Part shown: piece by piece, positions 15,363 to 37,212 of the stretch
How positions within the stretch are numbered: the stretch's first letter is position 1
Layout: each line of letters starts with the position of its first letter
Source of the DNA: Effrenium voratum
Lineage: Eukaryota; Sar; Dinophyceae; Suessiales; Symbiodiniaceae
Assembly: GCA_963377175.1 (NCBI GenBank)
Contig: CAUJNA010002879.1
Coordinates: 12,501 to 76,500, forward strand
Direction: 5' to 3'
Length of the DNA stretch: 64,000 nucleotides
The notes under the pieces: model-generated
Databases searched by the model: none
The model's input: the letters and a program-made list of their open reading frames with translations, nothing else
What the model was told of the DNA's origin: nothing
Position numbers and translations under genes: made by a program

Positions 15363-15367
15363 TTTTA
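15363..15367 (+). other. Target-site duplication TTTTA (5' copy)
   Basis: TTTTA directly precedes the 5' LTR and is repeated at 37208-37212 directly after the 3' LTR. Five bp is the usual duplication made by copia integrases. Confidence 0.8.
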
Positions 15368-15623
15368 AGTCAATTATCACGATGACATTTATGGCCCAGA
15401 GGTACATGAGGTAGGTTCCCATGTAGTCAGTTGCATGTTGTACATTCAAGTCATTGCCAAAGCATGATTCAATCACTGCTTTGGCTCAAGTGCTGAAAAC
15501 AGCGCGTTGCACCGCGCTAGCCCCAAGGTTAAGGGAGAGGTCGCAGTCACGGAGGGGTTCGTTCCTTTTAAGGTCCCGGGCTCCCCCGTTGTTGACAAAA
15601 CTGTGTTTCCCTCTCCTTTGAGT
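15368..15623 (+). repeat. 5' long terminal repeat
   Basis: 256 bp, beginning AGTCAATTATC and ending CTCCTTTGAGT. It differs from the 3' LTR (36952-37207) at two bases, C/G near 15457 and C/T near 15591. The ends form the imperfect inverted pair AGTCAA/TTGAGT rather than the usual TG...CA. It contains TTTGGCTCAAG at 15480-15490, matching the last 11 nt of the dinoflagellate spliced leader. Confidence 0.95.
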
Positions 15624-15676
15624 GGTTATCAGCCGTAACGCTTTTCGGGTAAACGAACCCTTTCGTGACTGCGACC
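15539..15676 (+). promoter_or_regulatory. Long stem enclosing the primer-binding site
   Basis: 15539-15563 (GGTCGCAGTCACGGAGGGGT continuing to TCGTT) is complementary to 15652-15676. All 25 positions pair in RNA if two G-U wobbles are allowed. The 88-nt loop holds the LTR end and the primer-binding site. The structure would form only in RNA spanning the LTR/leader junction, that is the genomic transcript. A role in priming, packaging or dimerisation is inference. Confidence 0.7.
15623..15634 (+). other. Primer-binding site candidate
   Basis: TGGTTATCAGCC begins at the last base of the 5' LTR. It resembles the copia PBS TGGTATCAGAGC, complementary to the 3' end of initiator tRNA-Met, with one extra T. 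A different tRNA ending ...GATAACCA is also possible. Confidence 0.6.
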
Positions 15677-15688: not shown

Positions 15689-17731
15689 ATGGAAGTCGGC
15701 CCTCACCGCGGCACACGCGGTGGGAAAGGGCCGCGTGCCCGATTGTACAACACTCTGCAACAGATCGTCGTCGACGAGTACAAGCGGCAGAACAGACGAT
15801 TCCGGTGGATCAGGTTTGCGGACGCCTCGAAGCAACAGGTCGAGGCGCTCTTCTCCTGGCGTGAGTCACTGGATAGTTGGCACCTGTGGAATTTTGACCA
15901 AGAAGCCTTCGACGTGATCCAGGCCGCGGACAACGCTTATCAGCAGCGTCTCGCATTGGTTGAAACCACAGGAGTGGTATTGCCGCAGGGTGCGCCATCT
16001 CAGGATCAAGCCGCAGCCTCAGGCGCGGCGGGAGCATCAAGCAGTGCAGCGGACTGGCTTCGTCCTCCGACGCCTCCATCAGCTTCCTCCTGGTTGCAAG
16101 ATTCGCGCACTCCTTTGCCTCGCATTCGGCCATCTGCAGAGGAAAGACAAGCCGCAAAGTCAACTCTTCGCGGGGTATACGCTAAAGCTGCGGAAACGCG
16201 GCGGGAGAGCAGCAGGGAGCGATCAACACAAAGATCGAGGTCCCCATCGCCACGAAGGTCGAGGTCTCCGTCAACGTCGCCGAGACGAGGACCAACTGCT
16301 GCTGCCCCTGTGGAACAAAGGGCTCATAGTGTTGAACCCGCGCTTGCGCGGGAGGGAAGGCCATCCAGAACCTCCCTAGCCACTCGGCCCATCGTTTTGG
16401 CTCCACAGAATAGCATCTACCCTGTGACGAGGTTTGACGAACACGGCACCTGGGTATTGGTGCGGGAGGCATCACAACCACGTGAAGCGGCTCCTCATCG
16501 GCGAGCGCAACGGACGTCTGGGCAGCTTCGCCAAGCCGATCCTTACCTCCTCGCTGACGAGACGTGGAGGGACCCGCCAAGGAGGTCCTCCACGAGCTCA
16601 CGCTCACGGTCTCCTGACCGCCGCCCGGCGCCTGCGGAAACCTTCCGCCTCGACGCCTACAGCTCGGACGAGGACCCACCGCAAGACGCGGAGTCCATCA
16701 GGACGGGCAGGTCAGCACACGTGCCTCGGCGCGTTTACGAGGCGCCGACTCACTCCGAGCCCATCGCGCTTCACAGCCGAAGAATCGGGGCAGTTCAACC
16801 GCCGCCCCCAAAGGCCGCTCCCAAGGTCATCTTCGGCAGCAAGCCACCGGTGCCCAAGGAGGTCCCCAAGGCAGTTTCTCCAGCTCCTGCAAAGGCAGAC
16901 ATCCCGAGGAAGTCACCGCCAAGGGCCAGATCTCCGGTTCGGACTCAGAGTGCATTCGGTTACAAGGCACCTCCGCGAGGCTTGAACAAGGCCGAACCCA
17001 GAAGCAAATCGAGCTCAAACCCGCCACAATTCGGGTACATCGTCAAGCCGCCACCTCCGCAGGTCGCTCAAGCAGCTGCTGCTAGCGCTGCAACTCCCGA
17101 AGCTGGCACGCGATTCCGCTCGCCACCAAGGAGGGCACCGCCTGCGCCCCCGCCGCCACCACCTCCGCCTGGAAGGCCGGTGCCGCCCAAGGAGCTTGTT
17201 GTTGCTCTTGACTGGCACGGAGTTCTTGACGTTGGGCAGCAGGGACCCCACCTCAACCCGGAAGTGATCCGACATCTCGTTCAGTTTGCAGCGGACTACG
17301 CACCTATAAATTTTATAGTGCTATCCTTCGTGGGCAGGGCTGCAAGCGAGTATCGCCGCCGCGAATTTCAGGTCGCCCTGGAGCACGCGCGGACAACATC
17401 TGGACTCACTTTTTCTGCGATAAAAATCGTTCACGAACGGTTGGGAAGGGGAGGCAAAGCAGACGCCCTGCAAGGGCTGGGCGTACACGCCCTTATTGAC
17501 GATACAGCATCGATTGTCCGTGAAGCTCAAAAGACAGGCATCGCGGCGTTCCGCAATTATCCGCACTTCGGTCCGGGAGGTTTTGGCAACGCACTTGAGA
17601 ACCTCGGTGAGTTCATTGAATCCCGGAACAGACAATTTATTCCGGCGGCGAGGGGCTTGCATCCATCGCAATACCTCGAGGAACTCCACCGATCTGCATC
17701 TCAGCTACCCGCCAGCCGGGTACTTCGGTAG
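15689..17731 (+). CDS. Retrotransposon ORF1: RS/proline-rich protein with C-terminal HAD-like domain
   Basis: The first ATG of the frame, at 15689, gives 680 aa; the frame is also open upstream, but only through GTG codons. The N-terminus (about 1-90) is basic and helical. Residues about 165-215 are rich in RS dipeptides (SRSPSPRRSRSPS), as in splicing-factor RS domains, and proline-rich linkers follow. From about residue 500 comes a compact domain with all four haloacid-dehalogenase motifs: I, LDWHGVLD with nucleophile D508; II, VLSF (S546); III, K590 in GGKADAL; IV, IDDT (D604/D605). The usual acid at D+2 of motif I is His, so phosphatase activity is uncertain. It lies between the LTR and gag, where copia elements normally have no gene. 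Motif assignment is by eye; fold and function are inference. Confidence 0.8.
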   Translation: MEVGPHRGTRGGKGPRARLYNTLQQIVVDEYKRQNRRFRWIRFADASKQQVEALFSWRESLDSWHLWNFDQEAFDVIQAADNAYQQRLALVETTGVVLPQGAPSQDQAAASGAAGASSSAADWLRPPTPPSASSWLQDSRTPLPRIRPSAEERQAAKSTLRGVYAKAAETRRESSRERSTQRSRSPSPRRSRSPSTSPRRGPTAAAPVEQRAHSVEPALAREGRPSRTSLATRPIVLAPQNSIYPVTRFDEHGTWVLVREASQPREAAPHRRAQRTSGQLRQADPYLLADETWRDPPRRSSTSSRSRSPDRRPAPAETFRLDAYSSDEDPPQDAESIRTGRSAHVPRRVYEAPTHSEPIALHSRRIGAVQPPPPKAAPKVIFGSKPPVPKEVPKAVSPAPAKADIPRKSPPRARSPVRTQSAFGYKAPPRGLNKAEPRSKSSSNPPQFGYIVKPPPPQVAQAAAASAATPEAGTRFRSPPRRAPPAPPPPPPPPGRPVPPKELVVALDWHGVLDVGQQGPHLNPEVIRHLVQFAADYAPINFIVLSFVGRAASEYRRREFQVALEHARTTSGLTFSAIKIVHERLGRGGKADALQGLGVHALIDDTASIVREAQKTGIAAFRNYPHFGPGGFGNALENLGEFIESRNRQFIPAARGLHPSQYLEELHRSASQLPASRVLR

Positions 17732-18102
17732 CTATTGCTGCAAGCCGTTAAAACCGTCGCTTTGCGCGGTACAGCTTTTGCAATTACAAGCTTTCGATTT
17801 GCAGACAAATTCTCAATACAGCTTGGCAACATCTCTCGATAAAGCACCATAGTGCGGCAGTGCGGATCAATCAATCTACAAGTACAATTACAAATACAGA
17901 ATTCATCAGGTGCAAAGCAGCAGGGCGCATTTTCTTGAGTGGCTCACTTGAGCGTTTCGCAACGTATTTTCTTGAGTGGCTCACTTGAGCGTGTCGCAAT
18001 CAGCTGCCAATCCAGGGATATCTCCTCGTAGCACCTTTTGACACGCTGCTCAAAGCGCGTGGAGCTAGCTTCGTGTGAGTGCAAAAGTTGCATTGCTGTG
18101 TC
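17732..18102 (+). other. ORF1/gag spacer with a direct repeat
   Basis: 371 bp with no gene. 17929-17962 and 17966-17999 are 34-nt copies differing at one base, each containing CTTGAGTGGCTCACTTGAGC. The repeat ends 103 bp before the gag ATG. It might serve expression of the downstream ORF (trans-splice acceptor, internal promoter or ribosome entry), but nothing in the sequence proves this. Confidence 0.6.
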
Positions 18103-19623
18103 ATGGCTTCAACGGGTTTGTCACCGCCATCAGAACCCCGTTCAAGGTCAACCCCAAATAGGGATTCTGAACCGGATGACCCTGACCTAGCCATGGTTCC
18201 TGCAGTTATGTCCACAGTTCGCACATCCACACCTCAAAGAGCAGCCCAAACACGACCATCATCACCCCCGAGTGGTCCGATCGTGTCAGAACCGACATCA
18301 TCCGAAGCTTCCCCAGTCATTCAGTTTCCTTCACAGGGATCGCAGTTACCTGACCCGATGACTAACGTACCCGCTGCGGCATTTATAGCTGGAGCTGCGG
18401 TGCAGCAAGCTCATCGAGCATCCGACCTCGCTGCTCAGGCAGCCAATCACGCCTTGCACCAACAGCAGGCCGCCGATCAGGCGAGACAAGAGGCCGGATG
18501 GATCAGGGAAAGGGCTGTAAGAGAAGTTTCAGACGTTAGGGTTCAGGCCGCTCAGCTAGCTTCGCAAGCACAGCAGGCTGTTCAAACAGCACAACAAAGT
18601 GAGGCTCAGGCTAGGCAACTCATTGAGCAGACACGACAGGAAGCCTTAGGCCATGTCGAGAACGCACGACAGGTTGTTAATGCCACTCAACAGGACGCTC
18701 AGCAAGAGGTTCAACGCATTGTTCAAGAGGCTCAACAGGCAATCCTACAAAGGGAGCAAACCATTGCCAGTCAAGAGCATACCATTCGTGGATTGTCCCA
18801 GGAAAATTCTGTGATGCATCAACGACTTGGTGATCTCGAACGTGTTGTTGCGCAGCTCACCCAACAAGCTCGTGCGACCCCTGTTCCGATGCAAGAGTCC
18901 CCGCCAAAAGCCGCATCAATAGCCGAAACAGCTACGGAAACAAGCGCGGCTAAAGCCTCAAGTCAAGGCACAGTTCCCCCAGGAACCCATCAGCCGGTTG
19001 GAGCACCTCAGGTTTCAGGTTCACAAGATGCCTCCGGTGTTGCCGCATCGTCGCAAGGGAATGCTTTTACAAGTACTATCCCCGACCCTCCGTGTGGTTC
19101 TGTTCAAAGTTCAGGACTTGGTCACGATGCCCCAGCTGATTCAAGGGACCCTGGTGGGGGTGCAACAAGTCAACATCTCGTAGGCCATTCGGCAGTGCTA
19201 GGAGCAGCGTCCTCTGTTGGAGACGCAGCCCCCGGCGCGTCGAGGACTAGCGGGTTGGGTAGAGACGGTCCAAGGGATCAAGCCGATGTGAGAGTGCAAG
19301 TGACGGCTTTAGCGGAAATGGTTCAGCAGCTTTCCCAATTGGTTGCTAATCAAGTGGCTCCGCCACCTCCGCCTCCGGCCGCACCACCTCCAGTGCCTCC
19401 CATTCCCCTTTTGGGGCGCCGCCTCCGCCGAAAGCTGGCAATGGCACTCATGTTCCACCAGTACCAATCACAATGTTGGGAGGGTTATACTCGTCATCCC
19501 CACAAGCGCCATCGGCAGCAAGCTCCGACACATCATCAGACTCTGATGGAGATGATGATACCCCACAATGTCGAGTTTGCGGCGGCAGCCATGAAGACAC
19601 GGATTGCCCATACCTCACCATGA
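18103..19623 (+). CDS. Polyprotein N-terminus: coiled-coil Gag segment (frame breaks at about 19410)
   Basis: ATG at 18103 with G at -3 and +4. The first 90 residues are Ser/Pro-rich. Residues about 95-256 are an Ala/Gln-rich continuous helix with heptad character, a likely coiled coil for Gag self-assembly. A Ser/Gly/Pro-rich linker and a proline run follow. Around 19405-19416 (CCCCTTTTGGGG) the sensible proline-rich reading moves to the -1 frame and continues as the next entry. What this frame encodes from there to its stop at 19623 looks non-native. No family match beyond gag-like position and composition. Confidence 0.75.
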   Translation: MASTGLSPPSEPRSRSTPNRDSEPDDPDLAMVPAVMSTVRTSTPQRAAQTRPSSPPSGPIVSEPTSSEASPVIQFPSQGSQLPDPMTNVPAAAFIAGAAVQQAHRASDLAAQAANHALHQQQAADQARQEAGWIRERAVREVSDVRVQAAQLASQAQQAVQTAQQSEAQARQLIEQTRQEALGHVENARQVVNATQQDAQQEVQRIVQEAQQAILQREQTIASQEHTIRGLSQENSVMHQRLGDLERVVAQLTQQARATPVPMQESPPKAASIAETATETSAAKASSQGTVPPGTHQPVGAPQVSGSQDASGVAASSQGNAFTSTIPDPPCGSVQSSGLGHDAPADSRDPGGGATSQHLVGHSAVLGAASSVGDAAPGASRTSGLGRDGPRDQADVRVQVTALAEMVQQLSQLVANQVAPPPPPPAAPPPVPPIPLLGRRLRRKLAMALMFHQYQSQCWEGYTRHPHKRHRQQAPTHHQTLMEMMIPHNVEFAAAAMKTRIAHTSP

Positions 19624-21361
19624 ATGGTGGTGGGGGAGGTGGGGGAGGCCCTGGCCAGTTCCCCAATGCAGACCCGTCTCAAGCTGCCGATCCTAGTGTA
19701 GGCATGACCGTCACCGATCACGCCACGCATGAGGAATCCGTTGTTCGCGTCAAGGACCTCAAGGATCTCGTGTTGCCATCCCCTCCGGAGAACGCTGGAC
19801 AGGCTAGAGGTTTCATCAACCAAGTTTTGATGGCCATCGGTCGACTCCAGAAGACCCCCGGAGATGAAGTTTACCAGTGGGCCCAAGCATGCATGTCCTC
19901 CACCGAGCAAGAACTCATCGCGGACAAGCGTTTCCCACGGTTAGATCGTGAAATAGCCGCAAAGCTCCTTAAAACCTGCCGTAAAGGTAAGTTCGGGCTC
20001 TTGTTTCAGAATATGGTTGAACAAGAGAGAATCTCGTCAGGTGGGATGCCCGTAGGGAGAATCATGTTGCGTGCTATCTTCAAGCACTTTCAGTTAGAAC
20101 GAGGTAGGCTCGGAACCTTAGGAGGTCGCAACTTGTTAAAGTTGTCTCTTGCAGGCCCGTCCCTTGCTGACCTGGATGCCTTTCGGGAGAAGTACGTTTA
20201 CGTGCTGACCGCAATTCCCGTGGCAGAACAACCCAGGGAAACAACCTTGTTTGATCACCTGTTGGATGAGCTGGAAAAGTGCACCTCGCTGAAGCCTAAG
20301 GTAGAAAAGGCACGGGAAGCCCCTTTCGGTAGCCACCGTAGGAAGCCGGAATGGTTGTGGTCCAAGGTTGATCTAGCCTTGGAGCTCCATCAGGACAAGC
20401 GGAACAGGGATGAGTTTGACAAAAGTCTTCAAATCAAGCCAGCCGTTATGTCCCAGGGGAATAATTCTAATGCCATGCCCGCAGCAAGCAGCGAAGACAA
20501 GCCCAAGAAAAGTAAGAAGAGCAAGAAGGATAAATCTGCTGACCAGCAGACTCCGGCAGCCCCTGCGCCGAAGGTTAAAGCTCCAAAGCCGCCTCCTCCT
20601 AAAGCTAATGCAGCTCCAGCCCCCAAGGGTAAAGGTAAGGGCGGTTCGAACGATAACCTTACTCCTAGGTCTAAGGCCATCAGTAAGACAGCCACTATGA
20701 CCGCGGCGGAGAAAGCCAAGATGCCGTGCATGTTTTATGCCTATAATTCGTGCAAGGCCAAGCAGTGTGCATTTCTCCACAGTGATTCCAACAAGTACAC
20801 TGGTCCCAAGCCCAAAAGTTTGTTGTCCCCGCCGCCGCCAAAGGCGAGTGCAGCTGTTGCACAGCTCATTCCGGCAATGGCAAGCGTCGCCTCCGATGAC
20901 AATCGCATTAGTTGGCTTTGGGATACTGCCGCAGGGAGACACTTGATCGGACGTCAAGCTTTGAATAGCAACATGATCAAGTGCGTGCGCGAGAGCAGCA
21001 CACCCGTAGGTTTTGCGACTGGGGGTGGTGCCCAACAAGGCACTACTTCATTAGGGTTCGAGGACAGCCGAGTGATACCTGCTGAAGAGCAGGTGTACGT
21101 CCTCCGTGATTGCCCACCAGCGCAATCCATCGGTAAGACCGTAATGGATCAAGGACACCTTTTCATTTGGGATCCACGTGAAAACGTTCCATACCTTGTG
21201 CCCCCAAAGGACATCAGTAGATGTAAGATTAACGTGCCCCGCAATGCGCGCATTAATGCATCTAGGGTAGTGGAATACGTTCCCCAATATGATGAAGTGG
21301 TAAAACCCAAGTTGGCAGAGTCGTCAACTCACCTCTGGCCGATTGAAGCCGCTGCTATGAG
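19410..21361 (+). CDS. Polyprotein: Gag, zinc fingers and aspartic protease
   Basis: Continues gag after the -1 shift. Order: a CX2CX3HX4C knuckle (CRVCGGSHEDTDC, about 19565-19605; the retroviral form has X4 before His); a helical Gag core (about 19740-20370); a Lys/Pro/Ala-rich linker; a CCCH finger CX7CX4CX3H at 20727-20780; and a retropepsin-like site WLWDTAAG with catalytic Asp codon at 20922. The frame is cut at 21361 by the nested transposon, inside ...AAAMS, and resumes at 32102 in the same frame once the duplicated GAG is discounted. Protease would release Gag, integrase, RT and RNase H. Confidence 0.9.
21359..21361. other. Target duplication GAG (left copy)
   Basis: GAG immediately precedes the left terminal inverted repeat and is repeated at 32099-32101. 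The polyprotein codons run on in frame with one copy kept, which confirms the 3-bp duplication independently of the inverted repeats. Confidence 0.85.
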
Positions 21362-21388
21362 CCTGGAGATGCATTTCACCCGTAAATG
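21362..21388 (+). repeat. Left terminal inverted repeat
   Basis: Begins CCTGGAGATGCATTTCACCC. Its last 17 bases (21372-21388, CATTTCACCC, one base, TAAATG) recur at 21402-21418 with one change, a subterminal copy just inside the end. Confidence 0.85.
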
Positions 21389-21828
21389 TCGGCCGGATCC
21401 CCATTTCACCCTTAAATGCAAATTTAGTCATTAAACGCCTTTGCCCTTGTCCAAAACATGCCACGTGGAAGACATGTTTTCGCAACAAAAACTTGCTACA
21501 ACAAGTAGCGCCTCTCGAATCAAGTTTTGATTGGGTTCAACTGCGTTGCGTTAGTCATCGCCCAAGCCAAGCGCGCTTGCGGACACTGGGCCCCATGCTT
21601 ACAACTCTGTAACTCTGCCTCACCGTTTGCCGCAGCTCTTTTTGCTGCCCCGGACTTGCTGCCATCTTTCAATGTGAGACGACGCTAGTCGCTAGTTCGC
21701 GGCCCGGTCCGTGCACGTGTGCATGCCAAACATGAGTGACCAAGGAACAAGCTAGATGCGTTCGAGCAAGACATGCGTGAGACATGAGTGACAAGCGTCA
21801 AGACATGAGTGGGCATGAAGCCAAGCAA
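21389..21828. other. Left subterminal region
   Basis: No gene. It holds the second CATTTCACCC..TAAATG copy and, at 21726-21835, a cluster of degenerate repeats of the type CATGAGTG(A/G)C / CATGCGTGAG. A matching cluster sits at 31610-31790 near the other end. In CACTA elements such subterminal repeats bind a transposon-encoded protein; that role here is inferred. Confidence 0.6.
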
Positions 21829-23157
21829 TCACGCACGGTGCAGCCGGGCAAGCAGCACCGCTTGGTACTTTGCCGGGAGCTGAAGAAGCCAGCGGCGCAG
21901 CGTTTGCACGGGAGCTGTGACCACGTGGGTCTTGCGCAGGACCGCCATCAGCTTTTTCAGGAGGTCCTCGTCCATCCAGCAGACCCCTAGCCAGGGGTTT
22001 GTTTGGTTGCCAGGCACATGCAGCAAGAGCAGGTGTTGTAGAAGGTGCGCCTTCGGGCGGAATTGAAAGAGCTTTACCGCCTCGCCACGGTGTTGCAAGT
22101 GCAAGGCAACATATGTCTGCATGAAGATCTGGCCCACCGTCTTGACCTGCTCAGCTTCGGCGTCGGTGAGGAAAGGAGAGGCTTGGGCAGCAGAGGCAAG
22201 CAAGCCAATCACATTGTTTGCCGCCCACACGCAAGTGCGAAGCAAGTTGTCGCCGCAGTCACGGCCATCAAGAAGGTCTGCAAGCCAAAGCAGCACGGAG
22301 CTTGTGCGGGAGCCTTTGTCACGAAGCGAGGCAAATGTGCCAGACTTCCAATTGAGCTTGGGCTTGGAAAAGGACCATTTCCGCGGAAGCTTTGCTAAGT
22401 TGCTTTGCTCGATCCATCGCTTAAATTGAGCTGTGGCGGCTTCCATGCGATCTGCCTGGTTTGGGCCTGCAAAGAAGCCTCGCATTCGCAATAAGATTAC
22501 AAGGACGCTCCCTGCCAGATCCCTCCCGGTTCCAAGGAAATACACATGTAAGGGGTCGGGCCAGATCCAGGATGGGTTGAAGCCGCGGAACGCCGCCAAT
22601 GCCGGCTCTTGGCTCCAAGGAGGGCTGTTTGGATCTAACAGCGTCTGACGCCAAAGCGCATCAGGACCCACATCAGTGACTGGGGCTGCCAAGGTTTTGC
22701 TCCCCATGCAAAGATGACAAGCCAATTTCCGGCCATATGACCGTGTCAAGCAGCAACTTTGCACGTGGAACTTCCAGTCGCCTTTCAAGCCGACGACCTC
22801 GCAGAAGAGCTGCTCCCCATTGTGGTGGACCCCTTTTTGGGCGAGGGCGCAAAGTGATCTGACCACGCACTTGATGGCCTCCTGGAGCGTCACATTGATT
22901 TGCCCACGGATAACGTAATGAGTCTTGGGGATCAAGGTGATGACGTGTCGGCTGAATACCGAGTCAGAAGCTGCAGGGCACACAGCACTCTGCCAAGTCA
23001 GAACCATCCAGCTCGTGCCAATGGCATTAGCTTCGTCACCGTAGAGCAGGAGTGGCAAAGCAGCTTCGTGAGCCGGAGCGCGCCCTAGGCGCACCCAGTA
23101 CTCTTCAGGCAGCTCGCCAAGGATGGCGCGAAAACCAGTTCGTAGCAGCGCGTGGGC
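21829..23157 (-). CDS. Transposase-like protein, main exon
   Basis: About 442 codons ending at TGA (21829-21831). No ATG lies at its start; a GC-AG intron of 46 nt (23203-23158) joins it in frame to the exon upstream. Signatures in order: LLLYGDEANAIG (first acidic residue); VVGLKGDWKFHV followed by TRSYGRKLACHLCMG (CX2C); WPDPLHVYFLGTGRDLAGSV. These resemble the GDWxx, CxxC and DxxH...G blocks of plant TNP2-type CACTA transposases and of a very abundant dinoflagellate protein family. It would cut and join element ends in the nucleus. Catalytic residues are not assigned with certainty. No in-frame stop, so it could be intact. Confidence 0.65.
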   Translation of the reverse strand, partial: AHALLRTGFRAILGELPEEYWVRLGRAPAHEAALPLLLYGDEANAIGTSWMVLTWQSAVCPAASDSVFSRHVITLIPKTHYVIRGQINVTLQEAIKCVVRSLCALAQKGVHHNGEQLFCEVVGLKGDWKFHVQSCCLTRSYGRKLACHLCMGSKTLAAPVTDVGPDALWRQTLLDPNSPPWSQEPALAAFRGFNPSWIWPDPLHVYFLGTGRDLAGSVLVILLRMRGFFAGPNQADRMEAATAQFKRWIEQSNLAKLPRKWSFSKPKLNWKSGTFASLRDKGSRTSSVLLWLADLLDGRDCGDNLLRTCVWAANNVIGLLASAAQASPFLTDAEAEQVKTVGQIFMQTYVALHLQHRGEAVKLFQFRPKAHLLQHLLLLHVPGNQTNPWLGVCWMDEDLLKKLMAVLRKTHVVTAPVQTLRRWLLQLPAKYQAVLLARLHRA

Positions 23158-23203
23158 CTCAGGAAAGAGACGTCGCACACACAATCAGCAGGCGCTACGG
23201 GGC

Positions 23204-23425
23204 CCCAGCAAACTCATGCGGCAACAGAAATGGCCAGCTTTGCACTGTCACAAAGCCATCGCCATCCAGCATGGGGAGCTCTTGGAAGGCTACGGGGGCG
23301 TCAAGCCCCAGAGACTGTGCCTCGAGCCTGGGGCACGCTTCCAGACACCGAAAGTCTGGCAGCCACTCGAGCCTGCGGTGCACATGGCGTTCAGAGGTCG
23401 TCGTGGCGCCCCTGCACACGTCCAC
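23204..23425 (-). CDS. Transposase-like protein, upstream exon
   Basis: Frame reading ...LDGDGFVTVQSWPFLLPHEFAG, ending at 23204, then GCCCCG... and ...CCTGAG, an apparent GC-AG intron joining in phase to AHALLRTGF. The 5' limit is uncertain because the frame is open to about 23425 without a good start. The SWPFLLPHEF segment matches the region before the catalytic core in the dinoflagellate family of the next exon. Confidence 0.5.
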
Positions 23426-24149
23426 TCAGAAAATTAACACGCGCGCAGGCAGGTCAGATCCAGCCTACTCCAGGCTTCAGACTTATACAAGTTCCCCAAG
23501 TCGGAGGCAAGCGCTATGGAGCTTCCACCCGAGCCCACTGCCGAAGCCAACCTGGCCAGCGTGATGAGAACTTAAGGTCTGCTTTGCAAGGAACCTCTCG
23601 TCCAGCTGTCGCCGGACATCTTGAGGTAGGCCGGAAGATGCACCGCTAGTACCTGACAGAACAATCGATCAACACGAATGTATACTGATCATGGACAGTG
23701 CTCTTGCTGGAAACCAAGAGCATACAATTGTTTATCTCCTCTCGCTTTGCTGCAATCGGTTCAAACCCCGGCTATCTTTTAGACAGCGCTCCCACCGTGA
23801 ACCGTTGCAGCTGAACAATGGAGCAAGGCTAAGGGGCACAGGGAAGGCAAGAGGTGAACATCATGAGCGCTGACTGCACAAGGGACACCAAGGCAAACCA
23901 AGCGCCCCGGCATGCTCCAACTCAACTGCGCACGCAGTGCGGTTATACCAAACGGCCCTGGTCAGGAAAAAGCTCACTGCTCATAGCCCCTGGCGTGCGA
24001 AAATGAATTGGCGCGACTTGCGCGAATCAGAGAAAGCCAGGCCAGCAAGGCTTGCGAAGCTCAGCCAGCACCGCGCGAACCTGTACTTTGACCATGCGGA
24101 CGTCCACAACCTCACAAAAGGTGGGTCAATCAAAACGTGAGGCGCGGTG
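23426..24149. other. Transposon interior, no clear exon
   Basis: About 720 bp between the transposase exons and the upstream gene. Minus-strand frames are short and broken. It may hold small transposase 5' exons or an intergenic spacer; none could be supported. Confidence 0.4.
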
Positions 24150-24640
24150 AAGCAAACGGCCTTCTGCGTGACCAGCTTGACCGCCTTCTGAAGGCTTGTC
24201 TCGTCCCGGATGCCCACCAAGCTGGAGCATCAAATTTGGCAACAGCGCTCTATTCCGGATTGGGCACCAAGCCTGTTGAAGACGTCAGTCAGGTCTTTGT
24301 GACAGCTCTTGAGGTCTTTCACAAAGTCACTGCCTTTCGACATGCGGTGCACACCTTCCAGATCGAGCAGGGCGCTGTTCACTGAGTTGAACTCTTTTTT
24401 CAGCTCAGCGCCTGGGGCAAGACGAGGCCGCAAACAACGCGCCAAGGCAGCACGTGCGTAATATTTAAGTCAGGCGCGGATCACAGCAACCTTGTCCTCC
24501 AGCGACTTCTTGCCCTCCAGACGGATGATCTGCTTGTCGCCCGTGGACTTCGGGCCACTCTTGGCCTTCGCTTTTGGCCGTCTTTGTGACGACGGGTCAG
24601 CACCTGCTGCGCCAAGCTATAGCTTTGGAAGACGGGTCCA
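24150..24640 (-). CDS. Helical C-terminal exons of a dinoflagellate transposon protein
   Basis: Three blocks. About 24620-24478 reads KAKAKSGPKSTGDKQIIRLE and continues to VAVIR. A GC-AG intron of 66 nt (24477-24412) follows. Then 24411-24230 reads AELKKEFNSVNSALLDLEG and on to GAQSGIERCC, and a further block near 24215-24150 reads LVGIRDETSLQKAVKLVTQK. The charged helical character fits the C-terminal part of the protein begun at 25827. Function unknown. Confidence 0.5.
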
Positions 24641-24977
24641 CGTACAGGTTTGTACACAACTTTACAAAGAAGAATCCCTGTCGATGAGAAGACAAGACCC
24701 CTGATTTTTTGCAAACAGCTTTGAGCACAGAGAAGTTCAGACATGCATGTCAAACATCAAGCGTGCAAGGTCATGCGTGAGCCATGCCATCAAGCCATGA
24801 GTGGGCAAGCTACCAAGATATGCGTGGCCAAGCCATGCATGAAGCCATGCATGGTCAAGAGTGACGTGTTCAAGCCACAAAGCTACACGTGGTCAAACTA
24901 CTAAACTATACACAATGAGTGGTCAAGAGTGGTCAGCCATGCGTGGTTCAAGAAACAAGACATGTGTGGTCAAGCCA
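24641..24977. repeat. Internal cluster of CATGAGTGGC-type repeats
   Basis: 24745-24965 contains many tandem-like variants of CAAGCCATGAGTGG, CATGCGTGAG and GTGGTCAAG. Similar clusters are at 21726-21835, 27320-27420, 28460-28650, 30530-30640 and 31610-31790. They fall between coding blocks, so they may be introns or spacers built from the same repeat. Confidence 0.65.
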
Positions 24978-25827
24978 TCAAACTCGTACAGGAGCAAGAC
25001 AGATCAAAGGCACCCAGGCCAATCTACAGATGAAGGGAACAAGGGTCCAGCCTGCGTTGGCTGCGTTGGCCGAGCCCTTCACGAACTCCATCACAGCATC
25101 AATTGCCGGCGCGCTGGCGCTTGGGTCGCGAGGGGCTGCTAGGGCCTCAAGCCGAGGTGGGGCTGCCAAGTAGGTGGACAGGGCATCCTGCGCATCAACC
25201 TCACCTTGCAGGGTGGCAGACTGTTCCACAGACTCCTGCTCCGTGCGGCTGCAACTCGTTTGCACCCAGTACTGCATGTCAGCCGCGCTGGTGGGAGCGT
25301 CAAGATCTGGCACCCCCCCCCCCTTCCTGACAATGGCTTCCACCTTGGTCCTGGGCTGGGTGACATACATGAGCGCCGTTATGTGCCAAACATGCGCGCA
25401 GCAGACAGAATGCCAAGCAAGCGGCTCCGACATGCCTCTGGCGCGCATCTGGGCCACCGTGAGCAACTCGCTCTTCCGCTCGTGGGCCTGGCTGGACTTA
25501 GCCTGCAAAGAGAGCGTGGCCTCCATGCGCTCAGCGTTCTCGCCCGACTTCACCCACTTGACCAAGAGGTCATTTTTGGCGTCCCGGCCGCCAGCTGCAA
25601 ACATGGCACTCATCTGCGGAAAGCGTGGTGCTCGGCCACCTTTAACCAGGCGCTGCAACCTCATGTAAGCGGAGCGGTGCGTCGTTGAGTTGATGACGAT
25701 GTCCTGCGCAGGGGCCTGGCCTGACTGAGTTTTGGCGGATGGCGACTGGAGATCCAGGCCATCCGCGGCACCCTCTGTGACGAGCTTTTTCTCTGACGAA
25801 GTGGGGCTGGGAGAGTCCCAGGGGCAC
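24978..25827 (-). CDS. Dinoflagellate-type domain protein, main exon(s)
   Basis: The minus frame is open from an acceptor-like TTTGTAG at about 25828. It reads ...DIVINSTTHRSAYMRLQRL, then RFPQMSAMFAAGGRDAKNDL, KWVKSGENAERMEATL and ELLTVAQMRARGMSE. Further on, KVEAIVRKGGGVPDLDAP and YWVQTSCSRTEQESVEQS appear. This block order (STxxxYMRL, MFAGG, LLxKW, ELLTVxQM) is one I recognise from a large, uncharacterised dinoflagellate family; no biochemical role is known to me. Likely one gene with the exons at 26664-25975 and 24640-24150. The 3' end near 24978 is set only by a stop and may run past a donor. Confidence 0.6.
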
Positions 25828-25974
25828 CTACAAACGCATTGGCAGAACTGCCTTCTCTGAAAGCGGAAGCTGAGGCGCTCGCTGGCTATCCTGCCACGAA
25901 GGCAGCTGGCGGCGAAGCTGTTCCTGTCCAGCTGCTAGGGTGTCCATCGACCTGGACGTGGTACGAAAGCACAA

Positions 25975-26664
25975 TCAGAATTTGTACATGGTTAGAGGCC
26001 AGCGCTCCAGGCGCTTCAAGTCCGGCTTCTCCAGGGGCGGCGTCTCCTCCTCACAGTCCACAACCCCGCCCAGCGTGGCGGCAAGGGGGCTCGTGGCCAG
26101 CAAGTTCAAAACGTTTGGCTGACCTCGGCGCAGGGCGGCTGGCTGAACAGACTTCTGCGCGGCCACAGCGGCCACTATTTGCTGCAAGGCAGTCTGGCCA
26201 CCAGGGGCTGGACCCTTTTGCAAAGGCTGGCCGGGCGTCGGCGCTGCAGGCTCAGTGGGCTCGGCCAGCTTCGAGCTTTCAGCTGGAGCCTGGTGGTTTC
26301 CTTCTGGCCGGTTTTTCAAAGCCTTCAAAGGCTTCCCATTCGCATCCACAGCCTTGGCCTGGGTCTCGGGCTGCTGGCTGTCCTCATCCTGGACGAGGGT
26401 GGGGGCAACTTCCAGCGCCGTCTTGGCTTTGGCCTTCGACTTGCCGCAAGCTTTTGGTTTGGCGGCTTGCTTGGCCTTTGCTTTGGCGGCCGGCTTCTGC
26501 TTCTTTGCGGGCTCCTGCTCCTGAAGCTGAGGACCATCAGCAGGCCGCTTCCTCACGCCAGCCAACATCTGCTCGCACTGGCTTACTGGGAGGCCAGTGG
26601 CCTCAGACAAGGCGTCAGCGGTCGGTGCAGCTCCAGCTGCTTTCAAAGCCTGCAAGGCCTCCAT
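25975..26664 (-). CDS. Lys/Ala-rich protein, first exon
   Basis: ATG at 26664 (MEALQALKAAGAAPTADALS) begins 229 codons; a TTG six codons upstream is not needed. Residues about 1-40 resemble a small helical domain, followed by a Lys/Ala-rich basic stretch (KPAAKAKAKQAAKPKACGK), which suggests nucleic-acid binding or nuclear localisation, then a Pro/Gln-rich linker. Near the stop the sequence ACCAT|GTACAA could be a donor, and 25925-25838 contains an in-frame-looking piece (EQLRRQLPSWQDSQRAPQLP) that would bridge to the exon at 25827. Function unknown. Confidence 0.55.
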   Translation of the reverse strand: MEALQALKAAGAAPTADALSEATGLPVSQCEQMLAGVRKRPADGPQLQEQEPAKKQKPAAKAKAKQAAKPKACGKSKAKAKTALEVAPTLVQDEDSQQPETQAKAVDANGKPLKALKNRPEGNHQAPAESSKLAEPTEPAAPTPGQPLQKGPAPGGQTALQQIVAAVAAQKSVQPAALRRGQPNVLNLLATSPLAATLGGVVDCEEETPPLEKPDLKRLERWPLTMYKF

Positions 26665-27319
26665 GGCAGCTACGATTGACAACTGCTACGAACAAAAGAC
26701 TTGAGAGCTGGTGTGGAAATATGTGCAAAATGAATTCACGAAATTCACGGGCAGATATCGCCTTTTGGGGGTCAGATAACGCCGAAAACACGGATTTTCA
26801 CGCCAAGAGTTTTCGAAGATCAAGCTGCCAGATTTTCGCAGGCAAAGTGCAGGATACGCTACTGATCGCTACTGAGCAGACTCTATACACTTCTTTGCGG
26901 CTGATTGCAGCAATCCATCCCAAGCACCTGGAGGGTGCAGCTTGCTGGATTTCAGCAAATACTTCATTACATCTTCCAAGTTGGCCTTCGTGTCAGGGCC
27001 CGAAGGCAGGCTAGCAGCAATCAAGCAACCAAGGCCTCTGACCAGACCTCGTGAGCAAAGTTGAAGTCACAAGCCTGGAAAAGCAAGAGAGGCCAGCAGT
27101 GAGGGTGCACAACTGGCACGCCTGAAACAGTTCGAGGTCTGTTTTTGTCATGTCCACTTGCGCTGGCCGGACAGAAGCCTCAAGCGCTGCCTGCGGGGAC
27201 ATGCATGAGCAAGCAACCCTTCCAGACATCAACTTCCACCTGGCGACCACAATCTTCAAAGGCTTCACGCAGGAGCACAGCTAAGTGCTGGCCGAAGGCA
27301 TACGCGTAAGCCCTGAAAA
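26665..27319. other. Spacer with one exon-like block
   Basis: 27310-27245 on the minus strand reads AYAYAFGQHLAVLLREAFED, resembling the C-terminal helix that follows the methyltransferase core in dinoflagellate relatives. The rest (26665-27240) shows no gene I can support. Confidence 0.4.
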
Positions 27320-28252
27320 TCACGCGGCATGCGTGGCGACAATGGCATGAGTGGCACAGTGAGTGACAACCAACAATTGCAACGTACATGAATGGCAACC
27401 GTGCGCAGTGACAAGCCAATGAGTGCAGCAGTTGCTGCCCAGGGACTGGCTCTGTTTGAGGGCGCTGCCATCTGCAGACCAGGAAGTCGATCCATCAGGC
27501 AGCTTCCGCTTCTTGCACAATGGGGCGCCAGAAAACCGCACAGAACGGTCAAGGTGTCCAGCAGCAGCATGCATGCGCGTTAGCAGCGCCGGATCGTTGG
27601 AATACAGCCTTTGTCTTTTGGGTGTGCTGAAGCCAAAGAAGAAGAGGCCATGCCAAATGCCACAACTGTGCACTACAGCTGCGTCGAACAGGATGCTGAG
27701 AGCTGGATGCATGGCCGCCATGCTTCCCTCTGGCTGCTCGATCAAAATTCGAAGACCCCTCGAGACCGCGTAGAGCAAGAGCAGCATTGTGCGAACTGCA
27801 AGGAAGTTCCCTAGCGCCACGCTGCTGTACGCACGGTTTCCAGATGGAAACAAAGCCGTTCGCTGATGAGTGCCTTTGTTCCTTGGAGATGAAAAAGGCA
27901 AACAATCACAGCACCTACTGTCAGGCCCAGGCGGGGCACAGAAGCTCGAGCAAGGCAGCGCTGCAATCACAAGCGCTCCTCGGCGACATCGGCGGACTTC
28001 ATTGAGAGCAGACCTCAGCGTCTACATCTGGCAAGGCCAACTGGAAAAACCAGGCACGGGCAGAAAACCTGCAGGGGTTGTCAGGTCGAAGCTGCCCGGG
28101 CGCAGCTGCAAGTCTATGTCAATGCTGGTCCCCCTGAAGCCCGCCTGCTCACATCAGCCAAAGGAGTTGTTTTCGAACCTGACTGCCACAGCCTCTCTGA
28201 GAGCAGCACTCACTCGGCCGAGCCCGCTATAGAGCTCAACAAAATCGCGATC
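27320..28252 (-). CDS. Cytosine-methyltransferase-like protein (multi-exon)
   Basis: Four minus-strand pieces. Exon 28252-28193 reads DRDFVELYSGLGRVSAALRE (motif I, SAM-binding FxGxG-like). Exon 28144-28073 reads AGFRGTSIDIDLQLRPGSFD (motif II acidic). From 28021 come TLRSALNEVRRCRRGALVIA and ALPCSSF (motif IV, catalytic-type Pro-Cys), then ILIEQPEGS (motif VI, where DNA C5-methyltransferases have ENV) and GFSTPKRQRLYSN. GC-AG introns of 48 and 51 nt join the first exons in frame; a further in-frame 33-nt GT-AG intron after PPGPDS is possible. The 3' part reads into CATGAGTG repeats, so the true end is earlier than the stop. A 5' exon with the start codon was not found. Target base and activity are unknown. 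Confidence 0.6.
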
Positions 28253-28774
28253 CTGCGAGCCACACGCAAGTCTGACAGAAACATCACGGGTAAGTTGCGG
28301 CTCCTGGGTGCCATGCAAGCCCGTGTTGTGGATCACAAGAAGCACAACTACTATGAGTTGTAAAGGGGCGCCTACTCGAAGCAATTCTGCTACAACCATC
28401 CTGGAAGGATAGCTTCGCAGCCAAATCCGCTCGAACAATCGCACGTGGGAGCAACTGTCAAGCCATGAGTGCGGCACAAATGAACAACTGCCAAGGCATG
28501 AGTGGCAACATGAGATGGCTTCACAATTAAGTGAAGACAGTGAACAAATCTCAAGGCATGAGTGGGCGACGTGGATGGCTATCAAGACAAACTCTCAAGG
28601 CATGAGCGTGAGTGACAACATGCGTGAGCAACTGTCAAGCCATGAGTGGGCAAAGTGCGGACAAGACACGCAGGCAACCGACTCACGCCAGATGAGCGCG
28701 TATACGCGTTATTTTTCCCCATCCCCTACAGATGCAAGGTTGGCCTTGCTCAAGCACCCCGCGCCACAGGTTTG
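28253..28774. repeat. Spacer with CATGAGTGGC repeat cluster
   Basis: 28460-28650 holds at least six variants of AAGGCATGAGTGG / CAAGCCATGAGTG. Minus-strand frame 28350-28255 may include a methyltransferase 5' exon (…TGLHGTQEPQLTRDVSVR…), but no splice model was convincing. Confidence 0.5.
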
Positions 28775-29155
28775 CTACGCAAACCTGCGACGCTTGAGAT
28801 CCGGGACGTTCTCCAGCAAGGAAGTCCGCTCTTCGGACACCATCCACTTGTCAAGGGCCTGCTTGTACGTGAGGTCCTGCTGCTCAGCGCGAATTGCCCG
28901 GACGAACTGGGTCTTGGCTTTCATGAAGCTGCCAGGCTGGTACCCCTCATGCTGCTCAGCAGGCTCTGGCTCTGTGGACTTGGCAAGAGGCCGGGCCACA
29001 GGCCGGCGCTGCAGGCTTGTTGGCTTGATCGAAATTTCTTCTACGGGGGCTGAAGCCTCCTCCTCTGAGCAATCTTCCTGATTGTCAGGCTGGTCGTCTG
29101 GGTCTATTGAGAAAGGCTTGGGTACAGGGGCGCTTTCCTTCAAGGACTCCAGCAC
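28775..29155 (-). CDS. Acidic/helical transposon protein exon
   Basis: 127 codons, preceded by an acceptor-like AATTAG and no ATG. An acidic linker (SIDPDDQPDNQEDCSEEEA) is followed by AEQQDLTYKQALDKWMVSEE, RTSLLENV and a basic KRRRFA end. The LTYxQAxxxWxxSExRxxLL block recurs in dinoflagellate mobile-element proteins as I recall them. Function unknown; probably a C-terminal exon of the unit starting at 31244. Confidence 0.5.
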   Translation of the reverse strand: MLESLKESAPVPKPFSIDPDDQPDNQEDCSEEEASAPVEEISIKPTSLQRRPVARPLAKSTEPEPAEQHEGYQPGSFMKAKTQFVRAIRAEQQDLTYKQALDKWMVSEERTSLLENVPDLKRRRFA

Positions 29156-29218
29156 CTAATTGCAGTACTACAATCTCAACGCACGGCATTATCACAGTGA
29201 TTTCGAAAAGCAAACAAC

Positions 29219-29731
29219 TCAGAACGGAGCATAGTCAGGCAACGCGTACTTGTTGACCTTGGGCGACGCCCTGGTTGAAGCCGTGGTAGCAGAGATGGCT
29301 GAGGAGCCAGAGCCAGCACGCTTGAGAGCCGGCGGCCCTTTGCTCTGCGCGTCCTGCGCCTGCACAGCTGCGGCAAGTTGGGCCTCCAAGGCTGCCCAGT
29401 CAAACGCCGTGTCCTCTAGGAACTGGACCTCGTCACCGTGCAGCTCTGGGTCTGGGTCAGAGTCGGGGGCGGCATGAGAAACTCGGGCCTTCATGTCCCT
29501 CAGGATTTGGGATTTTGCTCCGGCCGATTGCCCAAGCTTGAATCTGCCCACGACGTTTTTGAGGCCTGCAGCCATTTTGGCAGACCACTTCAGCATCACT
29601 TGCTGGGAGATCCCGGTTGGGACCAAGCTGTGCTTGCTGTAGTACGCCATAATGGCAGCAGCAATGATCTCCTCACTGAATCTCGCGCCCGGAGGGACGG
29701 CCAGCATGTAGCCGACAGTTACCTGGTCCAC
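29219..29731 (-). CDS. Transposon protein exon, unknown function
   Basis: 170 codons: VTVGYMLAVPPGARFSEEII with AAAIMAYYSKHSLVPTGISQ, then QVMLKWSAKMAAGLKNVVGR, an acidic linker with FDWAALEAQLAAAV, and a Ser/Ala-rich tail. The first 90 residues look like an alpha-helical domain. No match recognised. Lies between exons at 30151 and 29155 on the same strand. Confidence 0.5.
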   Translation of the reverse strand: MDQVTVGYMLAVPPGARFSEEIIAAAIMAYYSKHSLVPTGISQQVMLKWSAKMAAGLKNVVGRFKLGQSAGAKSQILRDMKARVSHAAPDSDPDPELHGDEVQFLEDTAFDWAALEAQLAAAVQAQDAQSKGPPALKRAGSGSSAISATTASTRASPKVNKYALPDYAPF

Positions 29732-29767
29732 TGCCGATACTACTTATCACATCCCTGCGAACCACAA

Positions 29768-29835
29768 ATACCCAAGGGCGGATAACCCCTTTTGGGGGGC
29801 GGATAACCCCTTTTTAGGGGCGGATAACTACTAAA
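29768..29835. repeat. Short tandem repeat (GGGCGGATAACCCCTTTT)
   Basis: Three successive copies of GGCGGATAACCCC(T)n with GGGG between, sitting between two minus-strand coding blocks where an intron is expected. Confidence 0.75.
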
Positions 29836-30151
29836 AACGCGTTTCCAGCACAAACAAAAACCGACGAAATTGTGAGGAATTGGCGAGCCATCCTGAGGAG
29901 GGGGCCTGCCAGTTGAGCTCCACATCGCCCTTTGTGCAGGTCTGGCCTGTCCAGAGGTGCTCGCTGTGCGCTCGCACAAAGGAGAAGCCAACCTGCAACA
30001 AGGTGCAGCTGGGCCAAGTTGCAATGTGCACAGAACGGCAGGCCTCCAGGAGTTCAGGGAACTTGTCCCACTCCACAACGAGCCGGTCCAAAAGCTCGGG
30101 CTCCTGCTTCAGCTGCTTGAACCGGTTTTTCTTAACCGGCGGAACAGCCAT
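29836..30151 (-). CDS. Transposon protein exon beginning MAVPPVKKNRF
   Basis: ATG at 30151 opens a frame of about 105 codons: MAVPPVKKNRFKQLKQEPEL followed by LDRLVVEWDKFPELLEACRS, then a Cys/Trp-containing part. The first half is highly charged and helical. The 3' end is uncertain because the minisatellite at 29768 follows; a donor probably lies before it. No family recognised. Confidence 0.5.
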
Positions 30152-30719
30152 ATTGCCAAGAGCGAGTCAGCTGGCTGGGGCCGAAAAAACTGGCGGAAAA
30201 AATGCGGAAAATCGCAGATTGCGCGACGCGCTCGACTCGAGGGCACTGGCAGACGTCCAGGACTGGAAGCGCGGGAACTTCATCAGGCCTGACCGGGCAA
30301 GTGTGACAACCAAAAAGCAGGGCTGAGAGGCCTCATCTTGAGCTCGGTTTGCAGCCACCTTGCAGGTGACAACTGCAGCTGATCACGTGCCACGTGCGCG
30401 CCTGGCTTTTGAGGCTCATGATGGGCCATGTGTGCAGAGACCTGAGCGGGAACGCATGCGAGTGTTCTGCCCTCCAGCGAATTGCAAGCAGGCAAGCGAT
30501 ACCAAAAAAAACATCACACACACACACCATGAGTGAACATGCGCCAACTTCAACATGCGTGGTCAACATGCGTGGTCAACATGGGTGGCCAAGCATGCAT
30601 GCATCCATGCGTGAGCAACGAGCTTGTCATGAGTGGCACCATGAATACGCACAAAAACAGCCCATCACGACATCAATTAAAGCGCACGAGCGGATCGCTT
30701 TTTGCCACCCGGATTACAG
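30152..30719. repeat. Spacer with repeat cluster
   Basis: 30530-30640 carries repeated CATGCGTGGTCAACATG and CATGAGTGGC variants. 30152-30529 shows no gene on either strand that can be supported. Confidence 0.5.
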
Positions 30720-31244
30720 TCAGTGCTCCTCGCAGTTCCGCCATGTGCAGCTGCCAGCTTTGCCTTTCGACGTGGTGTACAGCGTGGGCAGGGTCCGCTT
30801 CCGCCGCTTTGGCTCAGGGGGGGCGAGCTCTGTGTTGGCGAACGTCTCGGGCTCTGCAGTCTTGGGCTCTGCGGTCACGGGCTCGGGCTCTGCAGGCTTG
30901 GGCTCTGCAGTTACGGGGTTGCGCTCTGCAGGCTTTGCGGGCTGTGGGGGCTTTGTGGGCTCCACAGGCGTGTCAGGCGTGCGCGGCTTTGCGCTGGGTG
31001 GAAGCCATGGCACGTTGTACCAGTACGGCCCCATCGGAGGGGCTTTGAGTGGTGGAGGCGGCCTTGGTAGGTCGACCCCCAACTGCGGCATGGCAGCTGG
31101 CGGCGGTGGGGCTGGGACTCGCTCCTCCACGGGCAGCAGTTTCGGGGGTGGTGGTGGCGGTGGGGCCCTGGCCACTTGCGCACCGCCTCCCTTCGCTTTC
31201 GGCTTCGGCTTGCACCCCTTGCGCAAGAGCTTTGCCATATCCAT
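30720..31244 (-). CDS. Proline-rich basic transposon protein
   Basis: ATG at 31244 (MDMAKLLRKGCKPKPKAKGG) begins 174 codons; the frame is open further upstream but with unlike composition. Long proline runs (PPPPPPP; PPPPAAMPQL) lead to a repeated Glu/Pro/Ala/Thr/Val stretch (about four AEP-T units such as TAEPKPAEPE) and a basic KRRKR. Low complexity, with probable nuclear localisation. It is the first coding block inside the element's transcription-start end (32098 side). Function unknown. Confidence 0.55.
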   Translation of the reverse strand: MDMAKLLRKGCKPKPKAKGGGAQVARAPPPPPPPKLLPVEERVPAPPPPAAMPQLGVDLPRPPPPLKAPPMGPYWYNVPWLPPSAKPRTPDTPVEPTKPPQPAKPAERNPVTAEPKPAEPEPVTAEPKTAEPETFANTELAPPEPKRRKRTLPTLYTTSKGKAGSCTWRNCEEH

Positions 31245-32071
31245 GGTCAAGCTCCTGCAAAGGAAAAAATCACTCGATCGGTGCCGGATGCGCGCGAGTC
31301 CTCCAAGGCGAGCTAGCGGGCTTTCTGGGTCCTGCGCTCGCATGAGATCAGACGAAGCGAAGCTATTGCTGCTACGTCCTTTGAGCGGAGGCTCAGTCGC
31401 GAGCCACCGTGCGCTTAAGCCCGAGCTGCAAGGCGCAAGCGGGTCAAGCGCACGAATCGCACCTTGACTGAGCAGCTGAGCGAACGGCGGGCGCGCGAGA
31501 GGCCGAGCGCCCGCACGCATGCGCAGAGCCAAAACTCGCAAGCCAATGGACCAGGTCAAACACCAATCATATGCTGATATGAGCAACACCGACACGAGTC
31601 ACAATATCAACGTGCGTGGCTACGTGAGTGGCAAGCATGAGTGGCAAGCATGAGTGGCAACATGCGCTGTGAACATGCGACATGGGTGGCCAAGCGATCA
31701 ACACACATGTTAACGTCGTGGGTGGTCAACGTTCAACCGCATGCGTGACAAAATGTGTGGACATGCCTGGCAACAGGTGGTCACGTCATCGCCCGTGGAC
31801 AGGAATCACTCGAAACATGGTAGAAATGTGCTGCTAGAAGAAGGTTTAGATGCAGTATATATAGTGCCCAACATGTTTCACGCTGTTTATCCCTGAAGCC
31901 TCGACGCTCAGAAGTCATAGACAGGGCTACATGTCGCCCAGCTACAAGAAGACGCAACATCTTTAGAGGAAGGTGTTTTGGCCACCCAATTAAGGGACCT
32001 GGGGACATTTAACGACGATAGGGGGCATTTAGCAGCTAAAGTCATAAACGCCCCAACAGTCATCAGGGAAA
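31245..32071. other. Right subterminal region of the DNA transposon
   Basis: 31610-31790 is a cluster of CATGAGTGGC/CATGCGTGAC repeats, mirroring the cluster near the left end. Since all coding blocks run minus, the element's promoter should lie here. No promoter motif was recognised. 31980-32070 contains CATTTAACG and CATTTAGCAG motifs related to the inverted-repeat interior. Confidence 0.5.
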
Positions 32072-32098
32072 CTTTTAACGGCGAAACGCATCTCCAGG
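32072..32098 (-). repeat. Right terminal inverted repeat
   Basis: The reverse complement begins CCTGGAGATGCGTTTCGCCG and matches 22 of 27 bases at the left end. It is followed by GAG (32099-32101), the duplicated target. Confidence 0.85.
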
Positions 32099-32101
32099 GA
32101 G

Positions 32102-36159: not shown

Positions 36160-36799
36160 AAACTGCGATAAGCAGCTACATAGGCTTGTTTGCTACATAA
36201 ACAGCACGGTCAACAGCACGCTAGTAGGCACAGTCCAAGATTCGACTGAGGATTTGCATCTGTCCCTTTATGTGGACGCCGATTTCGCCGGAGAGCGAGA
36301 TGCAAAATCCACGTCCGGAGGATTCTTGATTTTGAGTGGTCCGCACACGCATTTTCCGCTTGCGTGGGTATCCAAAAGGCAGACATCGGTCTCCCGATCA
36401 ACGACCGAGGCGGAGATTGTATCTCTCGCATACTCCCTTTATCAGGAAGCGCTCCCTGCGCTAAGCTTGTGGGAGCTGATCTTGGACCGACCATTCCATC
36501 TCAAGATCCACGAGGACAACCAGGCGACTATCCTCGTAGCAAGGAAAGGTTTTTCATCCAAGCTACGCTGTGTCCAGCGAACACACAAGGTGAATCTCGC
36601 GTGCATCGCAGAGCAGCTTGAAAGCGAACACATCTCGATAGAATACGTCCAAACCGACATGCAGTCAGCGGACATCTTCACGAAAGCACTTCCACCCAAC
36701 AAGTGGGACCATGCCATCCGGTTGCTCGGCATTCGTGTTCACCTTCCAGAGAAGCTTGAAGACGTTCGTGAAAGTAGAGCCGCTAAAGCAGCTGCCTAG
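36080..36799 (+). CDS. Polyprotein: RNase H domain
   Basis: The last pol segment, in a third frame. LARPDLVKPIGDLASFVQKW is the connection domain. RNase H follows: LYVDADFAG (Asp codon 36275), STSGGFLIL, SVSRSTTEAEIVSLA (catalytic Glu), HEDNQATI, and the copia-typical closing block YVQTDMQSADIFTKALPPNK. Stop TAG at 36797-36799. It degrades the RNA strand of the RNA/DNA hybrid and would be made only as part of the polyprotein, so the apparent start codon is meaningless. Confidence 0.93.
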   Translation: MWLGRLARPDLVKPIGDLASFVQKWSRNCDKQLHRLVCYINSTVNSTLVGTVQDSTEDLHLSLYVDADFAGERDAKSTSGGFLILSGPHTHFPLAWVSKRQTSVSRSTTEAEIVSLAYSLYQEALPALSLWELILDRPFHLKIHEDNQATILVARKGFSSKLRCVQRTHKVNLACIAEQLESEHISIEYVQTDMQSADIFTKALPPNKWDHAIRLLGIRVHLPEKLEDVRESRAAKAAA

Positions 36800-37207: not shown

Positions 37208-37212
37208 TTTTA

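Follow-up and report, generated by a model that had tools for sequence, protein, structure and literature searches.

We describe here ORF1, an additional open reading frame (ORF) that lies between the 5' long terminal repeat (LTR) and gag of a copia-type retrotransposon of the dinoflagellate Effrenium voratum. The element stands in a stretch of 64,000 nucleotides (assembly GCA_963377175.1, contig CAUJNA010002879.1, positions 12,501 to 76,500 of the forward strand), which we call the window and to which coordinates refer. ORF1 belongs to the standing gene set of a dinoflagellate copia lineage and has a small N-terminal domain, a basic tail bearing a central box and a C-terminal capless domain of the haloacid dehalogenase (HAD) type; it is present across the family, is under purifying selection, has a predicted HAD fold and keeps its active site. 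Even distant versions of the element retain the active-site residues, so ORF1 probably has a real job in the element life cycle. The position and length of the frame are as given in a preliminary description made from the sequence alone: it starts 65 nucleotides past the end of the 5' LTR and runs for 680 codons and a stop, the open frame itself beginning at 15653. To our knowledge ordinary copia elements have no such gene.

Searches of the species' own genome covered an assembly of 1.156 Gb in 3699 contigs, the window included. At least 65 places match ORF1 at 91–100% identity, spanning residues 1–680, a lower bound set by the scoring of 65 of 24502 first-look candidates, and 64 of these 65 places are free of internal stops. 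These copies belong with the window copy to what we call clade A. Selection was estimated in 26 copies (the window copy plus two sets of 7 and 18 loci, with two repeat loci and a duplicate of the window excluded) as the uncorrected ratio of nonsynonymous to synonymous differences (pN/pS), using Nei–Gojobori counts over 325 pairs. The ratio was 0.121 for the whole of ORF1, and 0.157, 0.125 and 0.103 for residues 1–100, the linker (101–500) and the HAD domain (503–650), respectively. The closest pairs give 0.22 and the most distant ones 0.11, a drop that fits the expectation for new neutral mutations in dead copies laid over selection in the active lineage. For the gag core a value of 0.091 was obtained in 15 clade A loci (21 loci searched, 16 found and one wrong match dropped). 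Sister copies, to which the preliminary description had pointed as a check, thus carry the ORF largely intact and under purifying selection.

The surroundings of ORF1 are also conserved. All 26 copies have an LTR match upstream, about 65 nucleotides off in most and about 550 nucleotides off in L011. Of 120 gag places examined in clade A, 94 have a listed HAD place 2.0–9.8 kb upstream (median distance from start to start, 2.6 kb); this count set 120 of 150 gag matches against part of 150 HAD matches, clade C matches being among those omitted, so the 26 unlinked cases are no evidence of absence. D508, S546, K590 and D604-D605 are each present in all 26 copies, and His at the second position after the first Asp (D+2) in 25, the remaining copy (L014) having a deletion there. 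Departures occur in single sequences, with Leu at S546 in P0018, Gln or Arg at K590 in P0023 and P0027, and Glu at 605 in L035.

ORF1 extends well beyond this one family, the lineage that carries it having at least five clades (A–E). Besides A, the genome holds clades C (L044, L048), D (L045) and E (L047), and in each of these four ORF1 lies upstream of a related gag. A database search returned close relatives of ORF1 (P0002–P0009) and a second type (P0010–P0012), clade B, of which P0010 shows 43% identity over 69% of the ORF1 query; P0026 and P0029 were added by profile search and placed in the same clade. No close clade B copy was seen in the own genome among the best 150 of 276 candidates scored with P0029, where identity was only 31–36%, and a 1905-residue frame at one place in that search proved to be an artefact of masked bases. 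Damaged copies occur here too, the HAD part of L048 being frameshifted and the gag of L045 broken. In clade C, pN/pS was 0.118 over 6 copies after two frameshifted copies had been dropped (0.369 over all 8).

Between clades, pairwise identity is 26–38% for the HAD domain, 68–82% for a gag stretch (comparisons with E covering 78 residues) and 78–84% for the protease among A, C and D. The common layout comprises the N-terminal domain (A, C, D and E), a linker box RP[IL][VI]L (all five) and the HAD domain. Representatives of the five clades share D508, H510, S546, K590, D604 and D605 without exception, and these six active-site residues all fall among the 21 invariant positions of 164 columns (hypergeometric P = 2e-6). 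The catalytic positions of all four HAD motifs first read from the window (DWHGVLD, VLSF, the lysine at 590 and IDD) are features of the family, as is the replacement of the usual acid at D+2: the Asp of the DxD class is absent, with His in 5 of 5 representatives, and the invariance of H510 at such low HAD identity makes this His a family hallmark. A chance ORF or a decayed captured gene is ruled out by the stop-free copies, the low pN/pS and the conservation of motifs between clades. A host gene captured once and recently is likewise ruled out as the origin, because the HAD domains are 62–74% different between clades and yet a related gag lies downstream in the four own-genome clades; the source gene was not found.

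Assignment to the HAD superfamily rests on predicted structure. Two AlphaFold models (pLDDT 70.8 and 83.3) match HAD phosphatases, and their structure matches (Foldseek, VIA) are headed by HAD enzymes. Both models predict a Rossmann-like core in which the strand of motif I is followed by the squiggle and flap, the hairpin being clear only in m173955753225, and both lack a cap insert. Structure prediction, one of the checks named in the preliminary description, therefore agrees with it; the profile search named beside it gave no credible HAD match for ORF1 in Pfam, NCBIfam, PHROGs or PDB sequences. A weak match to DUF7240 (3 of 10 members, E 0.015) was not repeated with the full proteins P0010, P0012, P0026 and P0029, and none of 53 pattern matches in viral contigs was confirmed.

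The preliminary description had wavered between a phosphatase and a catalytically altered binding fold. Retention of the nucleophile, Ser, Lys and Asp pair in all five clade representatives favours the catalytic side, and ORF1 is likely to be an enzyme of phosphoryl transfer. Residues at D+2 are also replaced in other branches of the superfamily (dehalogenases, P-type ATPases and phosphonatases), so that hydrolysis, slow phosphotransfer and binding are all candidate activities of the domain. In the usual HAD mechanism the first Asp is the nucleophile and the second the acid/base, and macromolecules are the typical substrates of capless members (PMC8069645). In ORF1, D508 would likely become the phospho-aspartate; D508 and D604/D605 would bind Mg, K590 and S546 would contact the phosphate, and H510 would stand in for the Asp that is usually the acid/base. 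The domain would thus likely take its phosphate from a large, exposed substrate.

The explanation that we put forward, as a serious possibility rather than a probability, is that this capless HAD phosphotransferase with its basic tail takes part in RNA packaging, where its substrate would be a phosphorylated macromolecule and its mode of action like that of baculovirus 38K. The substrate might be a phosphorylated basic nucleic-acid-binding segment, either ORF1's own tail or Gag, and dephosphorylation might restore the positive charge with which element RNA is bound and packaged. The 38K protein (ac98) is a HAD phosphatase that acts in nucleocapsid assembly. Encapsidation requires its HAD motifs, and it mediates dephosphorylation of P6.9 at five sites, of which an RSRSRS stretch contains three (PMC5899202). 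It is virus-encoded, has D, S, K and DD motifs in its C-terminal part and has as substrate an Arg/Ser-rich nucleic-acid-binding protein (PMC5899202), where ORF1 has a basic Arg/Ser/Pro-rich tail of its own. A baculovirus nucleocapsid chain is also among the fold matches. The two systems differ, however, in that 38K has DxD where ORF1 has DxH and belongs to a DNA virus with a separate substrate protein; moreover, no sequence search named 38K, and the function of ORF1 is a prediction. A further point that weighs against a 38K-like role concerns the RS-rich region of the preliminary description: such a region exists, but RS/SR dipeptides are more frequent than in a composition shuffle in only two of the five clade representatives tested (A and C).

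The basic tail, which forms the linker between the N-terminal and HAD domains, is probably disordered. The central box, RPIVLAP..VTR.D..G.W.L, stands out from an otherwise variable linker and may be a docking motif.

A doubtful but reasoned alternative is a phosphatase of nucleic-acid ends, akin to the 3'-phosphatase of polynucleotide kinase/phosphatase (PNKP), that would clean 3' or 5' phosphates on element RNA, primer tRNA or cDNA ends while the basic tail holds the nucleic acid. The phosphatase domain of T4 PNKP has a capless HAD fold, as has the site in both of our models, and is among their top Foldseek matches (ranks 2 and 7–9 in one, rank 1 in the other); proteins named polynucleotide kinase or PNKP phosphatase also recur among the viral matches. 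The TM-scores by query are nevertheless modest (0.41–0.48), identity is 12–17%, and HisB, GmhB and MDP-1 rank above T4 PNKP by VIA Z. In addition, T4 PNKP is a DxD enzyme and has a kinase half, whereas ORF1 showed no recognisable kinase or ligase domain. HisB-N and GmhB are themselves small-molecule metabolic phosphatases with 7–16% identity in the VIA comparisons, and we know of no fusion of either to a basic tail.

Rather unlikely, too, is an altered HAD fold that binds a phosphorylated partner, or holds a long-lived phospho-aspartate, without turnover; such a protein would be an accessory for RNA binding or host interaction. The His at D+2 in five clades would suit such a protein, as would the faster divergence of the HAD domain than of the gag stretch and protease, which resembles that of accessory proteins. 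A mere binder, however, need not keep the other catalytic residues, among them the Asp nucleophile, invariant, and His could itself play the acid/base role. A role against host phospho-signalling or defence, in which ORF1 might dephosphorylate a host protein or nucleotide messenger, is improbable: ORF1 does diverge fast relative to gag-pol, and HAD phosphatase effectors act in type III CRISPR, another host–element conflict (PMC12715507), but pN/pS within the family is low and close to that of gag.

The LTRs of clades A, C, D and E share TTTGGCTCAAG, with which the spliced leader of dinoflagellates ends at its 3' side. All 29 clade A sequences that extend into the LTR carry it (L001–L028 and the window, duplicates included), as do clades C (L044, 2799–2809; L048), D (L045; 14 nucleotides) and E (L047), in each case 57–186 nucleotides ahead of the ORF1 frame. 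The LTRs of different clades hardly align except at TGCATG and where the LTR ends beside the probable primer site. In the window two matches were found against 0.12 expected, which count as one independent event because they sit in the two LTRs. The full leader with up to three mismatches is absent from the window, and similarity past the matching 3' end is poor (13–15 of 21 in all). Relict leaders are known upstream of retroposed genes (PMC6050394, PMC3229502). The presence of TTTGGCTCAAG in LTRs that otherwise hardly align suggests a trans-splice acceptor, a promoter piece or a leader-derived start that would fix the RNA 5' end just before ORF1. A broader proposal, which we hold at low confidence, is that the leader-derived site sets this 5' end by trans-splicing and that the element's own DxH HAD enzyme, a new catalytic type, is needed to package or mature its RNA and was acquired before the lineage split into at least five families.

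The features of the element are collected in Table 1. It has the paired LTRs of Ty1/copia elements, with a 5-bp candidate target-site duplication. The reverse transcriptase gave a weak match to Pfam RVT_2 (E 0.0016; 18.5 bits, under the cut-off of 31.6), and the integrase, which lies upstream of it and had no Pfam hit, and the RNase H were recognised by eye. Gag begins about 350 nucleotides downstream of ORF1 in the window copy. In several other copies gag and protease form one long frame, and gag-pol runs unbroken from about 350 nucleotides after ORF1 (at least 1724 codons in L022); the window copy is thus damaged, and more so than these.

Table 1. Features of the ORF1-bearing element in the window
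Feature	Position	Strand	Remarks
Candidate target-site duplication, left	15363..15367		TTTTA; the 5-bp match alone could be chance
5' LTR, 256 nt	15368..15623	+	254/256 nt identical to 3' LTR; repeat family D14
TTTGGCTCAAG, 3' end of spliced leader	15480..15490 and 37064..37074 (both LTRs)	+	Compared with the 22-nt DinoSL as given in PMC6050394
Probable primer binding site GGTTATCAGCCGTAAC	15624..15639	+	Kept between clades A, D and E
ORF1, extra gene, 680 aa	15689..17731	+	Between 5' LTR and gag
N-terminal domain, residues 1–100	15689..15988	+	Clades A, C, D and E align at 22–31% identity
Basic Arg/Ser/Pro/Ala-rich linker, residues 101–500	15989..17188	+	pN/pS 0.125; composition
Central box RPIVLAP..VTRFDEHGTWVL, residues 233–260	16385..16468	+	Recognisable in five clade representatives
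HAD-like domain, residues 503–650	17195..17638	+	AlphaFold model m173955753225; fold matches
Motif I, D508-W509-H510 (in DWHGVLD)	17210..17218	+	Nucleophile Asp; His at D+2; invariant in five clade representatives
Motif II, S546 (in VLSF)	17324..17326	+	Five-clade alignment
Motif III, K590	17456..17458	+	Five-clade alignment
Motif IV, D604-D605 (in IDD)	17498..17503	+	Five-clade alignment
gag and protease region	18079..21434	+	Two overlapping frames in window copy; domains named by eye, no Pfam support
Inserted sequence breaking gag-pol of window copy, ~10.7 kb	21435..32180		Limits approximate
Integrase, reverse transcriptase and RNase H region	32181..36799	+	Three frames in window copy
3' LTR	36952..37207	+	Differs from 5' LTR at 2/256 positions
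Candidate target-site duplication, right	37208..37212		TTTTA

An inverted repeat (15539–15563 and 15652–15676, 23 of 25 positions) pairs the LTR with the leader just ahead of ORF1 and encloses the probable primer binding site; it could form an RNA hairpin that acts as a packaging or dimer signal. The 10.7-kb insert contains a 451-residue ORF on the minus strand (21829–23184) with no credible Pfam match. Elsewhere, arrays of repeats of about 63 bp with GGGAATCTATCACTACTGG occupy 43511–44871, and single copies are found across the window (families D2 and D4).

Extra ORFs are a known feature of LTR elements, and many have no recognisable domain. A parallel in position is ORF0 of the rice Ty3/gypsy element Retrosat2, which lies upstream of gag-pol and evolves faster than it; that element is a plant gypsy, however, and the text available for it mentions no HAD domain (PMC3485330). 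Additional enzymes are described in an orchid Ty3/gypsy element (a 2-ODD RNA demethylase; PMC9289625), in SymbioLINE and DIRS-Dnmt retroelements (PMC5890265, which describes Symbiodinium copia elements as without DNMT) and in bdelloid LTR elements (ORF3, an esterase/exonuclease; PMC5408684), but these differ from ORF1 in enzyme, position and element class. A review devoted to the additional ORFs of plant LTR elements mentions neither phosphatase nor dehalogenase in its main text (PMC7264820), and a search of the literature outside subscription papers gave no HAD domain in a retrotransposon among the matches listed.

In dinoflagellates, Ty1/copia elements are reported to be highly expressed, heat-activated and the more likely driver of retroposition; retrogenes number in the thousands in the genomes of this group (PMC6050394). 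In ORF1 the predicted enzyme fold is clear, conservation runs deep and the active-site residues do not vary, so that its role is directly testable. A HAD family of the DxH type would widen the known chemistry of the superfamily.
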